Assembly: GCA_947498785.1 (NCBI GenBank)
Contig: CANMLS010000018.1
Location: 1-64,000 of the forward strand
From: an uncultured Aquimarina sp.
GTDB lineage: Bacteria; Bacteroidota; Bacteroidia; Flavobacteriales; Flavobacteriaceae
Length of the DNA stretch: 64,000 bases
Direction of reading: 5' to 3'
Shown here: positions 10,426 through 25,314 of the stretch, piece after piece
Position numbering within the stretch: position 1 is the first letter of the stretch
Layout of the letters: every line of letters begins with the position of its first letter
The notes under the pieces: generated by a model
Seen by the model: the letters and a program-made list of their open reading frames with translations, nothing else
The model's database searches: none
Told to the model about the DNA's origin: nothing
Translations under genes and position numbers: made by a program

Positions 10426-10448
10426 GAAGGAATTTGGTTAATTCCTAG

Positions 10449-10845
10449 TGGAGTCGGAGGGATTCGAACCCTCGTCCAAACAAGTAATACAACAGCTTTC
10501 TACACGCTTAGTTTTTGTTTAATTTTCGACGATAGGAAAGACCAAAAACCGCCAACTTATCGCTTATTCTCAATTAAGTTTCAAAATTATATCAAGATCC
10601 TATAACTTCTAGGTTTACTTTTACGATACCTCATGATCAATCGCCGTAAACCAAGGCTCTTGAGAGGTATCCTGCTTGTTCACCTTGTGAACCGAGGCAC
10701 TATCCTACTAAAATTCAGATTATGCAGCTAGGGCGTAGTTATTCTCGCCGTTTAAAAAAGGTGAAATATGATATTTACGAGCTATATCCCAGCGCTCGAC
10801 GTGCTTACCACTCTATTAATCTCGCTGTCAAAACCAGTCGACCCC
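10449..10845 (-). ncRNA. ssrA: tmRNA (ssrA)
   Basis: The 5' end begins GGGGTCGACTGGTTTTGACAGC and the 3' end carries a T-arm (GAGGG TTCGAAT CCCTC) and acceptor strand CGACTCC plus discriminator A. The two acceptor strands pair over 7 bp, with one G-U. The CCA tail is not encoded (genomic CTA follows). The tag reading frame is at 10720-10749 on the minus strand and reads GENNYALAA then TAA, the form expected for Bacteroidetes. It rescues stalled ribosomes and tags incomplete proteins for proteolysis. The 3' end also seems to serve as the attachment site of the integrative element to its left. Confidence 0.97.
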
Positions 10846-21623: not shown

Positions 21624-21720
21624 ATTTAAAATAAAAGGAAAAGCAATAGAGTACACAATTTTTATCTACACAGTGATAATTTTAACTGTAAATGGATATA
21701 AGAAAACTAATAGTAAAAGT

Positions 21721-22185
21721 ATGAAAATAGATGTTACAAACTGGGGTATTTTACAATGCTTACAGCAAAATGCAAGGTTATCTAATGCAGAAATAGGAAG
21801 AAAAGTTGGTTTGAGTTCTCCTGCTGTGGCAGAAAGAATCAAAAAGATGGAAGATTATGGTGTGTTAAAAGGATATAAAGCTGAGGTTTCATACACAAAA
21901 ACGGGATACCAGTTAAAAGCAATCATTACGTTACGTGCTTTTATGGGAAGATTACAACCTTTTTTAGTTAAAGTAGCTACATTTAAAGAAGTAATGAACT
22001 GCTATAGAATTACAGGGAATGAAAATATTGTTATGGAGGTGATTTTACGCGATCAAATACATTTACAAGAGTTTATTGATAGGCTTATTACTTATGGTGA
22101 AGTCAAAACTCATATTATACTTTCTAATCTTATAGAGAATAACCCTATTACTAATTCTGCAGGTTTAAATGAATTAGAAATTTAA
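21721..22185 (+). CDS. Lrp/AsnC family transcriptional regulator
   Basis: 154 aa. The N-terminal HTH is MKIDVTNWGILQCLQQNARLSNAEIGRKVGLSSPAVAERIKKMEDYGVLKGYKA, followed by a RAM/ACT-like ligand-binding domain with CYRITGNENIVMEV near residue 105. Lrp proteins sense amino acids or related metabolites as oligomers. The start MKIDVTNW was used because 16 upstream residues in the open frame are not family-like. Its target is unknown; a structured RNA motif follows directly downstream. Confidence 0.88.
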   Translation: MKIDVTNWGILQCLQQNARLSNAEIGRKVGLSSPAVAERIKKMEDYGVLKGYKAEVSYTKTGYQLKAIITLRAFMGRLQPFLVKVATFKEVMNCYRITGNENIVMEVILRDQIHLQEFIDRLITYGEVKTHIILSNLIENNPITNSAGLNELEI

Positions 22186-22228
22186 GTTTTTTGGCATGAG
22201 ATTTGTACATATGCTTATATGATGAACC

Positions 22229-22321
22229 ATCTTTATCTTGTGTGAGGACATTAGTAAGGGGAACTAAAGAGAGTACAAGGGAGAGATAATAAAACGCCTA
22301 TAGAAATTAAGGCGTTTTATT
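22229..22321 (+). ncRNA. Structured RNA motif, copy 1, with terminator
   Basis: Two segments, GTGTGAGGACATTAGT (22240-22255) and CTAAAGAGAGTAC (22264-22276), recur at 24440-24491. A 13-bp outer stem pairs 22229-22241 with 22275-22287 (one mismatch, two G-U pairs), and an inner stem TTAGT/ACTAA closes a short loop. The conserved bases fall in the internal loop between the stems, as in structured RNAs. An intrinsic terminator (AATAAAACGCC / GGCGTTTTATT, 22288-22321) follows at once. It could be a free sRNA or the 3' end of the Lrp mRNA; it might be a known flavobacterial motif such as Flavo-1, which I cannot check. Confidence 0.6.
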
Positions 22322-22330
22322 TATTATTTA

Positions 22331-22615
22331 TCATTTAACTGTGATGCAGCCATCTTTGATCTCTATATTAGAGTTATTGTTGATAGTTATCCAGCCACAA
22401 TTGGTTTTGATTTCAGCTTTTTCACTTCCTCCTTGTATAGTTACAGAAGCAGTTCTGCTACTATCAAACTCAACGGTTTTTGATGAACCCGCTATTTTTA
22501 CTTCAAATTTATAACTTTTGGAATCTTTGTTATAATATCTGATATTCACATTAGCTTGAACAAGAAAACTAAACATCATAAATAAAATAATAAACAACTT
22601 TTTATTTTTTTTCAT
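22331..22615 (-). CDS. Small secreted protein, unknown function
   Basis: 94 aa. A signal peptide (KKLFIILFMMFSFLVQANV) leads to a mature part of about 70 residues rich in beta strands and Ser/Thr/Asn (SYKFEVKIAGSSKTVEF, AEIKTNCGWITINNNSNIEI). The two Cys are in KTNCGW and KDGCITV and could form a disulfide. I do not know the family. It converges on the RNA motif copy 1, whose terminator ends 10 nt from the stop codon. Confidence 0.6.
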   Translation of the reverse strand: MKKNKKLFIILFMMFSFLVQANVNIRYYNKDSKSYKFEVKIAGSSKTVEFDSSRTASVTIQGGSEKAEIKTNCGWITINNNSNIEIKDGCITVK

Positions 22616-22785
22616 GGTAAAGAGTTTTGGAAATTTGATTAAAAATGCTGATTTTGAGTTGTTTAAAATAGAAAAAATATATCAATAAAAAGTATGTTTA
22701 ATGTTATTTTTGTCAACTGACTCTTTTATGAGTTAAAGAGAAATTATTAAAATTACTTCCAAAATCTAACATGTAGTGTATTTTT

Positions 22786-24243
22786 TTGTTATTTAGTTAT
22801 AAAATCACATATATCGTGCTATTTTCTTTCTTAAAACAATGTCTTGTTATTAGTGTGCTATTTCTTAATGTCTTAAGTTATGGACAAGACAAGCTTACTC
22901 TTAAAAAAGGAGTAGTAATGGATTCTGTATCGGTTTCTTCTATAAACGGTATGTTTAGTGTTTATCTACCAAAAGATTTTGATACCAACAAAAGTTGGCC
23001 TTTATTACTTGGATTTGATTCTTCTGGAAAAACCAGTAGAATTGCAAGGTTATACAAAGAAGCAGCAGAAGAATATGGTTATATCGTTGTTATAGCAGAT
23101 TTTTTAGAGAACCAGAAGCCAAAAGAAAAAGTTGAATATATGTTAACTTTTATGAACTATGTCTATACTCTTTTTTCAATTCAAAAGAGGAGAGTATACG
23201 TTACCGCTTTTGGGGAAGACTCTAAACTGGTTAGTTTATTACCAGCATTATATTCTGATGAAATTTCTGGTGTCATTGCAATAGAAGATAGTTATTATTA
23301 TTATTATAATTCGAGTATCAGAATTAAAAAGAATTTTTCATATTTAGGTTTAGTAAATATTACAAATCATAGACTTAAAGATTTTTTGAGTAATAAAGCA
23401 TACCTTAAAAGTAAAGCAATTCCAGCAGATGTTTTTGTTTACAATAATAAATCCAAGTTCCCAGATCAAGGACTTATCAAGAAAACACTTTCTACGTTTA
23501 CGCTTCAGGCAATGCTCAAAGGAAGAATACCAAAAGATTCTATTTGGGTTCAGCATTTGTTTAAAAAAGAATTAGCAGAAGTTGATACTTTTATAAATAA
23601 AAAGGAATTTTTATTTGCGAATGAAGAACTTAAGAAAATCAGGATCAAATATGGTATGTTTTTTAATACCAATTATTTAAAAGAACAACAGAAAGAAATT
23701 AAAAAACATAAAGAATATAGACGCGAAAAACGATTAAAATCCAAATACGCTTATAAAGAAATGTTGATTAGAGAACAATATATATATGCTCTTGAAGAAG
23801 ATATTGAAGGAGAGGATTTTGAAAATCTTGGTTGGTGGAAATACCAAATATCACAAGTAGATACTTTAATTCAGAATAAAGAAAAATATGCTCATAACAT
23901 GGGACTTAGAGCAAAAAAATACTTGAAGTTTCTAGTAGATAGTTATAAAGTAGAACTAGAAAAGAACAATAAAAATCTGATAAAAAAAATGTTTCTTAAC
24001 ATACTTAGCACAATTGCGGATGAGCAAGATTTTGAATCCTACAAGAAAGTTATTTCTCTAAGTGCTCAAGATCAAGATTATGAAACTGCTTTATTTTATC
24101 TAGAAAGAATGTTGCAAAATGGATATAAAGATATAGATGGACTTTATACGATCGAAGGTACTCTGGCCTTAAAACTATCTAAGGAATACAACAAACTTAT
24201 CAAAAAACACTTAGGAACTTCTAAGTATTTCTTTTCAAATTAA
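22786..24243 (+). CDS. Secreted esterase-like protein with degenerate nucleophile
   Basis: 485 aa. A signal peptide ends near VLSYGQ. Residues 45-220 resemble a PHB-depolymerase/LpqC-type esterase (FSVYLPKDFDTNKSWPLLLGFD, then YIVVIADF), but the elbow reads VTAFGEDSK, not GxSxG, so catalysis is doubtful. The C-terminal half is helical and charged, perhaps TPR-like. The start is uncertain: GTG 22777, TTG 22786 or GTG 22816 all keep a signal peptide, and there is no ATG before residue 45. Function unknown. Confidence 0.55.
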   Translation: MLFSYKITYIVLFSFLKQCLVISVLFLNVLSYGQDKLTLKKGVVMDSVSVSSINGMFSVYLPKDFDTNKSWPLLLGFDSSGKTSRIARLYKEAAEEYGYIVVIADFLENQKPKEKVEYMLTFMNYVYTLFSIQKRRVYVTAFGEDSKLVSLLPALYSDEISGVIAIEDSYYYYYNSSIRIKKNFSYLGLVNITNHRLKDFLSNKAYLKSKAIPADVFVYNNKSKFPDQGLIKKTLSTFTLQAMLKGRIPKDSIWVQHLFKKELAEVDTFINKKEFLFANEELKKIRIKYGMFFNTNYLKEQQKEIKKHKEYRREKRLKSKYAYKEMLIREQYIYALEEDIEGEDFENLGWWKYQISQVDTLIQNKEKYAHNMGLRAKKYLKFLVDSYKVELEKNNKNLIKKMFLNILSTIADEQDFESYKKVISLSAQDQDYETALFYLERMLQNGYKDIDGLYTIEGTLALKLSKEYNKLIKKHLGTSKYFFSN

Positions 24244-24303
24244 ATTGAAATCATAAAGTTTTGTGCATTTCATCGATTTATTATGTTTTTTGTCGTCTTT
24301 ATT

Positions 24304-24335
24304 TTTGAGTTAACAATTTTTTTGTGCTATATTTA
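24304..24335 (+). promoter_or_regulatory. Promoter of the second RNA motif
   Basis: TTTG at 24304-24307, 20 nt spacer, TATATTTA at 24328-24335 (one base off TAnnTTTG). Transcription would begin near 24342, inside the gap between two convergent genes, so it can only make an independent RNA. Confidence 0.55.
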
Positions 24336-24341
24336 CACCAT

Positions 24342-24541
24342 CATTAAAAAACTTTGATGTATGGCCAAAAACTAACATTTTAACTTGTATGACGATATGA
24401 ATTAAAATATTAGTTTGGAATACATCAGGGTCGAATTAGGTGTGAGGACATTAGTCTAAAGACCCCAAATCTTGAAAGCTAAAGAGAGTACGTAATTTGC
24501 CCTAAGGATTGAAAGCGTTCATTGAACGCTTTCATTTTTTT
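24342..24541 (+). ncRNA. Structured RNA of about 200 nt carrying motif copy 2
   Basis: Its own promoter (24304-24335) and terminator (GAAAGCGTTC 24511-24520 / GAACGCTTTC 24524-24533 plus T run) define a transcript in a 315-bp gap. The first part folds into a long hairpin closed by TGATGTAT (24355-24362) and ATACATCA (24420-24427), continued by CCAAA/TTTGG, CTAA/TTAG and ATTTTAA/TTAAAAT. The second part holds the shared motif: outer stem 24428-24438 with 24493-24503, conserved GTGTGAGGACATTAGT (24440-24455) and CTAAAGAGAGTAC (24479-24491), inner stem TTAG/CTAA. Function unknown. Confidence 0.65.
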
Positions 24542-24558
24542 TGCGTCAAACATAACCT

Positions 24559-25314
24559 CTATTTATCGACCACTAAATGAGGTACATTTTCTAGTTTCCA
24601 ATCAATAACCAAACCTCCTGCTATTGATTGTGCTATCTCTTCACCATATAGATATTCACATAAATATAGAGCAGCTTCAAAACTTTTAGCACCTCCTGCA
24701 GAAGTTATATATTTTCCATCATGAACAAATAATACTTCCTTTCTAACATCCAATTTTGGAAACATAGTACGCATTTTATCAATATCGCTAGGAAATGTAG
24801 TAGAAACTATAGAGTCCAGAACCCCCGCTTTTGCAAGTACAAAAGCTCCATCGCAATGAGAAGTCATAAATGTAGCTTTGTGGTCAACTTGTTTGATAAA
24901 TTCAATCATGGCATGATCATCTAAATCAGTATCCAAATGATGCTCTGCACTGGGAACCACCAAAATATCAATATGAGGTAAAGAATCTATAACATAATTA
25001 TAATCAGGAATAATTTTTACTCCTTCAAAAGTGGTTATTGGCAGATCAGTATTTGCTACCGTAAAAACATTCATTTGTTTGATGTTCTTTCTATATTGTG
25101 TATGTTGAAAAATATCATAAGGAGCAGTAAATTCTGTATTGTACGTTCCATTCATAATCAAAAAAGCAACGTTATATCGGTTGGATTCCAATTTTGGAAA
25201 CTCTTTTTTCTTTTCGATTGCTTTCTCTTCTGAAACAGTTTGTTCCTTTTTTTGTTGTATTTGAGTGCATCCAAAAATGAGTATTGCAATCAGAATCAAA
25301 ATGAAATTTTTCAT
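24559..25314 (-). CDS. DJ-1/PfpI family lipoprotein
   Basis: 251 aa. Lipoprotein signal with Cys at about residue 16 (LIFGCTQ), then a charged linker. The DJ-1/PfpI (class I glutamine amidotransferase-like) domain spans 48-240: NVAFLIMNGTYNTEFTAPYDIF, the Cys nucleophile in FMTSHCDGAFVLAKAG near residue 157, and SAGGAKSFEAALYL. Relatives include AraC-linked sensors and proteases or hydratases. The exact activity is unknown, but membrane anchoring in the envelope is unusual. It follows the MFS gene at 23 nt, so they are probably one operon. Confidence 0.82.
   Translation of the reverse strand: MKNFILILIAILIFGCTQIQQKKEQTVSEEKAIEKKKEFPKLESNRYNVAFLIMNGTYNTEFTAPYDIFQHTQYRKNIKQMNVFTVANTDLPITTFEGVKIIPDYNYVIDSLPHIDILVVPSAEHHLDTDLDDHAMIEFIKQVDHKATFMTSHCDGAFVLAKAGVLDSIVSTTFPSDIDKMRTMFPKLDVRKEVLFVHDGKYITSAGGAKSFEAALYLCEYLYGEEIAQSIAGGLVIDWKLENVPHLVVDK

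Follow-up and report, generated by a model that had tools for sequence, protein, structure and literature searches.

Two candidate terminator-ended small RNAs with a common internal-loop core in Aquimarina and other Flavobacteriaceae

Two related elements between convergent genes

The window, a 64,000-nucleotide stretch of a contig from an uncultured Aquimarina sp., contains two related elements on its forward strand, each lying between a convergent gene pair. The first is preceded by the gene of an Lrp/AsnC regulator (21673-22185, +) and followed by an orphan of 94 aa that by eye appears secreted (22331-22615, -); the second is preceded by a 485-aa orphan with no Pfam match (22786-24243, +) and followed by a DJ-1/PfpI protein gene (24559-25314, -). 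A sequence-only reading of this DNA had described the two elements as copies of one RNA motif, set between convergent genes and each ending in an intrinsic terminator, and both the gene arrangement and the terminators (terminator-like hairpins at 22288-22321 and at 24511-24533, the latter with a T-run) were confirmed. The copies also lie where that reading had placed them, with GTGTGAGGACATTAGT and CTAAAGAGAGTAC at 22240-22255 and 22264-22276 in the first and at 24440-24455 and 24479-24491 in the second. As a joint gapped pattern, these two halves have two exact matches in the 5.67 Mb genome and none in its reversed control. Each half alone, with up to two mismatches allowed, gives four matches in the window; among 100 shuffles, 2 reached that count with the 5′ half and 11 with the 3′ half. 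Single half matches are thus poor support, and the exact joint match together with the relatives described below makes the case.

The first element would encode a short RNA of about 105 nt (22218-22321, +), its start placed from a sigma54-type promoter by the usual promoter-to-start spacing of this class and its end from the terminator (22288-22321, +), which is evident in both sequence and fold. The promoter, TGGCATGAGATTTG with -24/-12 elements (22192-22205, +), lies just 3′ of the Lrp/AsnC gene and belongs to a strict pattern found in relatives; an RpoN gene is present in the source genome. The 5′ strand of an outer helix (22229-22242, +), supported by the minimum free energy (MFE) fold and by covariation in relatives, pairs with 22274-22287. 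It leads into the loop 5′ side UGAGGACA (22243-22250, +), an inner stem-loop UUAGU...ACUAA supported by alignment and fold (22251-22267, +), whose variable apical loop occupies 22256-22262, and the loop 3′ side AGAGAG (22268-22273, +). The fold of 22214-22325 has an MFE of -24.6 kcal/mol (z -2.90; none of 200 shuffles folds as stably) and takes exactly the form supported across the family.

The second element would encode a long RNA of about 200 nt (24341-24542, +), its probable start lying just downstream of a -7 box, TATATTTA (TAnnTTTR; 24328-24335, +), of a Bacteroidetes sigmaA-type promoter. An operator-like repeat, TGCATTTCATCGA-N7-TGTTTTTTGTCG (24264-24295, +), lies further upstream. The RNA opens with an extra 5′ hairpin, GAUGUAU...AUACAUC with an apical UGACGA (24356-24426, +), present in the long type only and supported by alignment A5. 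It continues with the loop 5′ side UGAGGACA (24443-24450, +), an inner stem UUAG/CUAA bearing the apical hairpin AGACCCCAAAUCU in its alignment-supported form (24451-24482, +; apical loop at about 24460-24475) and the loop 3′ side AGAGAG (24483-24488, +), and it ends in an intrinsic terminator visible in sequence and fold (24511-24542, +). The fold of 24336-24545 reaches an MFE of -57.4 kcal/mol (z -4.81; none of 200 shuffles folds as stably), and this single-sequence fold pairs part of 24451-24482, and part of the core, in a way unlike the family structure. The promoter elements and the extra 5′ domain of the long copy were absent from the earlier reading.

Common to both copies is an asymmetric 8 x 6 internal loop, UGAGGACA opposite AGAGAG. 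The earlier claim that both flanking stems differ in sequence while still pairing stands in part: within the window the outer stem differs and pairs in both copies, and the inner stem is identical (TTAG/CTAA). Change in the inner stem was seen in relatives, as TTGG/CCAA and TTAA/TTAA.

A conserved core across Aquimarina and ten other genera

Named genomes were scanned exactly with GTGAGGACA-N3-33-AGAGAGTAC, which returned 105 stretches. Among these, matches with the TTAG-type inner stem came from Aquimarina or near relatives, typically with one short copy (about 35 nt) and one or more long copies (about 49 nt) per genome; scattered matches in other phyla looked chance-like by eye. The same pattern matched 2 of 299 genomes of the family Flavobacteriaceae, both of the genus Aquimarina. 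Filtering for a preceding GT and an inner-stem-like start, with duplicates removed, left 87 copies (28 short, 59 long), in which the core columns are fixed by construction through pattern and filter.

A covariance model built from 56 of the 87 copies (R1) matched 51 of 66 genus genomes at E<=0.1, with one to five matches each. At E<=0.01 its matches in the family covered 11 of 397 genomes, from 7 of 237 genera. A second model (R2), for which 33 diverse copies were used, found matches in 5 of 395 genomes of the order and 2 of 345 of the phylum, every one inside Flavobacteriaceae. With few candidates scored per genome in the model searches (12-14 in those of the order and the phylum), the family may extend further, and absence elsewhere is weak evidence. 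A looser pattern matched 24 of 397 family genomes, with 5 genomes in the reversed control; judged from the matched letters, 14 of the 24 carry true copies and 10 are chance matches. For three of these ten the judgement also had the flanks to go by, or a true copy lies alongside; with R2, G226, another of the chance-like set, nonetheless reached 19.3 bits (E 0.02). Accepted copies come from the genus (g1) and ten further genera (g2, g33, g61, g80, g81, g97, g104, g107, g173 and g203). A search without further copies showing compensating changes would have refuted the earlier reading; such copies were found, both across the genus and in ten other genera.

The collected set comprises 125 copies, 107 from the genus and 18 from other genera, divided into 52 short-class (core <42 nt) and 73 long-class members. 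One weak copy (L171:4967-5048; 37.3 bits) lies directly after an intact long copy, which suggests tandem duplication followed by decay. Viral contigs were scanned as well, giving 74 pattern matches, the best of which reached 26 bits with R2 (E 0.0063). Among the best 4 of 14 R2 matches, those checked lay in open stretches of 74 codons (L244 and L249; L295 has the same letters as L244) or 240 codons (L263), and no convincing phage-borne copy was seen.

The family consensus of the loop is UGAGGACA / AGRNAG, set between outer and inner helix. Its 5′ side is exact in 121 of the 125 copies and carries a single change in the other four. Its 3′ side reads AGAGAG in 102 and AGAUAG in 5 of the 107 genus copies, and AGGCAG (12), AGAGAG (4) or AGAUAG (2) in the 18 copies from other genera. 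This invariance is partly a matter of selection, since the copies were mostly found by patterns and models built on the core. Across the family alignments the outer stems, apical loops and tails vary while the core stays. Two other readings of the loop, kink-turn and bulged-G, were weighed by eye and set aside, since one position on its 3′ side is variable and the adjoining A-U varies in the manner of a Watson-Crick pair.

In the alignment of 33 diverse copies, made by MAFFT without structure from rows of which many had been found by a structure-using model, 11 of 14 pairs change on both sides and 87.9% of cells pair. The covariation score of 0.491 exceeds the shuffled mean of 0.220, with none of 500 shuffles reaching it and slid structures attaining at most 0.124; this bears out the earlier proposal of a structured RNA rather than a chance repeat. 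The outer-helix pair at the loop is G-U, A-U or G-C, the pair two steps from the loop runs through G-C, A-U, C-G and U-A, and the pair beyond that is U-A, C-G or U-G. In the extra 5′ helix of the long type (alignment A5), 20 of 31 pairs change on both sides in some copies, as do 26 of 55 pairs of the full long structure across 44 copies. The long-copy covariation of 0.225 compares with 0.163 for shuffled alignments (0 of 500 reach it) and at most 0.076 for slid versions, the structure being taken from one member's fold, which by itself favours it over slid versions.

Two promoter classes and their genomic settings

A sigma54 promoter was visible upstream of the 28 short copies first collected. 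In the full set, the strict -24/-12 pattern occurs within 80 nt upstream of 44 of 52 short-class copies and of none of the 73 long-class copies, against a background of 1.0% of random 80-nt stretches. Five of the short-class copies that miss the strict pattern carry near-consensus sites (L026, L045, L095, L107 and L149), and three (L155, L174 and L175) are without a recognisable sigma54 site. The distance from strict site to core is 46-58 nt in Aquimarina and 36-42 nt in the other genera, a near-constant spacing that would place the transcript start at or just before the outer helix. Passages of a transcriptome study within Flavobacteriaceae report sigma54 promoters of the same kind from a related flavobacterium, together with a mutation test of one of them (PMC9723704).

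Upstream of long-class copies, the TAnnTTTR box is present in 63 of 72 cases, 108-120 nt before the core in 54 of them (raw counts, given without a background rate). Many long copies further carry an operator-like element of the TGTATTTCATCGA-N7-TGTTTTTTATCG type above the -7 box, the narrow form of the pattern being found in 28 of 72. In the source genome the operator-like repeat has four sites at up to three mismatches, with none in the reversed control; the three other than that of the long copy (L209, L211 and L212) lie near unrelated genes. These sites may represent a regulon, possibly of a LytTR-like regulator; the 20-bp period of the repeat presumably recalls LytTR sites. The promoter elements found at each copy make it likely that the two RNAs are transcription units of their own, and two promoter classes on one core would provide separate inputs to one effector.

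Of the 124 copies that could be tested (a further one sits at a contig edge and was excluded), 114 have a terminator-like hairpin within 80 nt downstream, again a raw count given without a background rate. The genomic setting is largely syntenic within the genus: the Lrp gene precedes 30 of the 37 short copies, and 36 of the 70 long ones are flanked by the 485-aa orphan and the DJ-1 gene. The 485-aa orphan is the next upstream gene in 43 of the 70 long genus copies. Outside the genus, genes for an S1/P1 nuclease and a convergent AlkB-like oxygenase flank 9 of 15 short-class copies; this setting was seen at L148, L149, L150, L151, L173, L190, L192, L193 and others. The convergent arrangement of the window is not general: with open frames of at least 90 aa counted as neighbours, it holds for 55 of the 73 long-class copies and for 15 of the 52 in the short class.

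With relatives in most of the Aquimarina genomes searched and in ten other genera, usually with their own promoter and terminator, the elements look like an undescribed family of regulatory RNAs. Comparison among relatives demonstrates the family, its predicted structure and its candidate promoter and terminator elements as features of sequence, and RNA would be made from both loci. That the family is one of structured, self-promoted small RNAs is, judged on these patterns, highly probable. The best overall explanation, which as a whole we hold with about even confidence, makes the two window elements sibling terminator-ended small RNAs of one undescribed family whose core would bind a protein.

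Candidate modes of action and their alternatives

Under this explanation each RNA would form an imperfect hairpin with a near-invariant 8 x 6 loop (UGAGGACA / AGRNAG), followed by a terminator. A sigma54 promoter would feed the short RNA (about 105 nt), while the long RNA (about 200 nt, with the extra 5′ hairpin) would be fed by a sigmaA promoter and an upstream operator-like element. The loop is the one feature common to all copies, which favours a protein-binding module, and the core may therefore serve as a protein-binding platform: as more RNA is made, a protein would be titrated or delivered, as with CsrB-type or CrcZ-type RNAs. Granted a small RNA family, we put protein binding as the main action at slightly short of an even chance. 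The conserved loop fits protein and ligand binding alike, and the two cannot be separated on this evidence.

Both window copies lie between convergent genes and adjoin terminators, as expected of a 3′-end element such as a bidirectional terminator or an mRNA 3′-UTR stability structure, but the copies have sigma54- or sigmaA-type elements of their own at near-constant distances, neighbour orientation varies across the family, and termination does not need a conserved loop; we regard this explanation as very improbable. Still harder to credit is a mobile or REP-like repeat spread through the genome, for which several copies per genome, some close together, might speak, since the 5.67 Mb source genome holds two copies only and the loci are largely syntenic in the genus, as counted above. 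A small-molecule aptamer, or in some lineages a cis-acting attenuator of the downstream gene, is a more serious contender. A strictly conserved loop between variable helices with a terminator close behind is riboswitch-like, and for 32 of the 52 short-class copies the first open frame of at least 90 aa past the core, 30-503 nt away, runs in the same direction. Moreover, among 33 genus short copies with enough sequence, alignment to the frame of the 485-aa orphan starts within 200 nt downstream in 11, so that a leader or attenuator role is possible in some species. On the other side, both next genes in the window are antisense, and so is the next frame for 63 of the 73 long-class copies and 17 of the 52 in the short class, of which a further 3 have none in reach. 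The 485-aa orphan lies 400-520 nt off in 4 of the 33, 880-1090 nt off in 12 and not within 1500 nt in 6, and those 9 of 15 short-class copies from other genera face the convergent AlkB-like gene. A constant same-strand downstream gene class was found neither in the window nor among the 63 long-class copies, and the 32 same-strand short-class cases do not share one. Nor do the two folds contain an alternative pairing with the terminator. Because a terminator usually intervenes and the downstream gene is not constant, we prefer an RNA acting elsewhere; the counts of same-strand frames and orphan distances led us to raise the standing of sensing or cis-attenuation slightly, and within a small RNA family it remains unlikely as the main action.

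A further alternative is trans-acting antisense pairing, for which the UGAGGACAUUAG arm, or else the C-rich apical loop found in long-type RNAs, would be the mRNA seed. Seed pairing is known for the Bacteroidota small RNAs GibS and FopS, according to passages of PMC11697453, and the complement of the UGAGGACAUUAG arm contains AUG. The apical loops, too, are non-random, a possible sign of base pairing: in Aquimarina, 28 of the 37 short copies have GGG and 56 of the 70 long ones CCC, and outside the genus CCC recurs in 9 of 15 short-class copies. Against this, 19 genomes together contain 25 occurrences of TAATGTCCTCA, the perfect 11-nt complement, outside the RNA genes; 6 of the genomes lack it, and its reversed control is more frequent. 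A perfect 11-nt target of the conserved arm common to the 19 genomes was not found. A shorter seed within the 5′ arm is still conceivable. The 3′ arm AGRNAG is conserved together with the 5′ arm, which is what a structural motif requires. Loop-loop kissing of the siblings, GGG of the short RNA with CCC of the long, was considered and rejected: within-genome complementarity is 10.52, versus 10.81 for shuffled partners, and 447 of 500 shuffles over 23 pairs are at least as high, leaving no co-variation of the sibling loops within genomes. For a small RNA family we therefore judge base pairing with mRNA rather unlikely as the main action, and reserve a small remainder of probability for some other action.

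Protein binding by the core, our preferred reading, leads to a wider proposal that is possible and held tentatively: a Flavobacteriaceae RNA hub, in which separately signalled siblings converge on one RNA-binding protein through a new internal-loop motif. If so, sigma54 activators on one side and sigmaA with a repeated operator on the other would act as the separate signals, and the family would represent a CsrB- or 6S-like global control system for Flavobacteriaceae. To our impression, few regulatory RNAs have been described in this family of bacteria. A defined loop, two promoter classes and culturable hosts together provide a handle with which to fish out the protein or ligand. Passages of PMC9723704 link the sigma54 regulon of F. 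psychrophilum to protein quality control, envelope stress and gliding, and the RNA family may tie the flavobacterial sigma54 regulon to an RNA output.

Comparison with known RNAs proceeded from Rfam 15, against which the whole window gave one match at the gathering cut-off, a tmRNA gene (10446-10845, -); a search of 22150-24600 at E<=5 added two matches, both far below cut-off. 6S-Flavo RNA (RF01685), a hairpin with a bubble and, like the new family, a Bacteroidetes non-coding RNA, does not match at either copy, its only match in the source genome (105.8 bits, cut-off 85) lying on another contig (G000:C34 39130-39237). Identity with a CsrA-titrating RNA was likewise rejected, as the CsrA domain PF02599 has 0 matches in the source genome and was positive in 3 of 14 control genomes. 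CsrB/CsrC and RsmY/RsmZ are sibling small RNAs with a common protein-binding motif in repeated hairpin loops; the new family resembles them in its siblings and in the AGGA within its core, but carries that AGGA once per RNA, in an internal loop, rather than as repeated GGA hairpin loops. CrcZ/CrcY and Qrr are sigma54-dependent regulatory small RNAs of Proteobacteria, often present as sibling copies, and the short class shares with them a sigma54 -24/-12 site near the predicted transcript start; we know of no resemblance in sequence or structure. Five paired-arm matches (one to two mismatches) to the E. coli rrnB operon have arms hundreds of bases or more apart, and none makes rRNA mimicry plausible.

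The Rfam comparison that the earlier reading had proposed, with Flavo-1 named, returned no family match for either copy: Flavo-1 (RF01705), which passages of PMC2864571 list as a non-cis Bacteroidetes RNA candidate, is not matched by cmscan at gathering or at E<=5. In the literature searched, which lay apart from supplements and a 2017 list of 224 RNA candidates and so leaves an earlier unnamed listing possible, neither a description of the family nor the letters GAGGACAUUAG were found, and Bacteroidota terms do not appear in the main text of the genome-wide discovery papers PMC11109978 and PMC8632094. Close parallels within Bacteroidota are FopS and GibS of Bacteroides, which, in the passages of PMC11697453 concerned, are paralogous, multicopy and terminator-ended, are bound by a global RNA-binding protein and act by seed pairing. 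The new family resembles them as a set of multicopy paralogous small RNAs with a terminator end; on the account given in those passages, FopS RNAs keep a single-stranded 5′ seed, whereas the new family keeps a double-sided loop while its 5′ tails vary.
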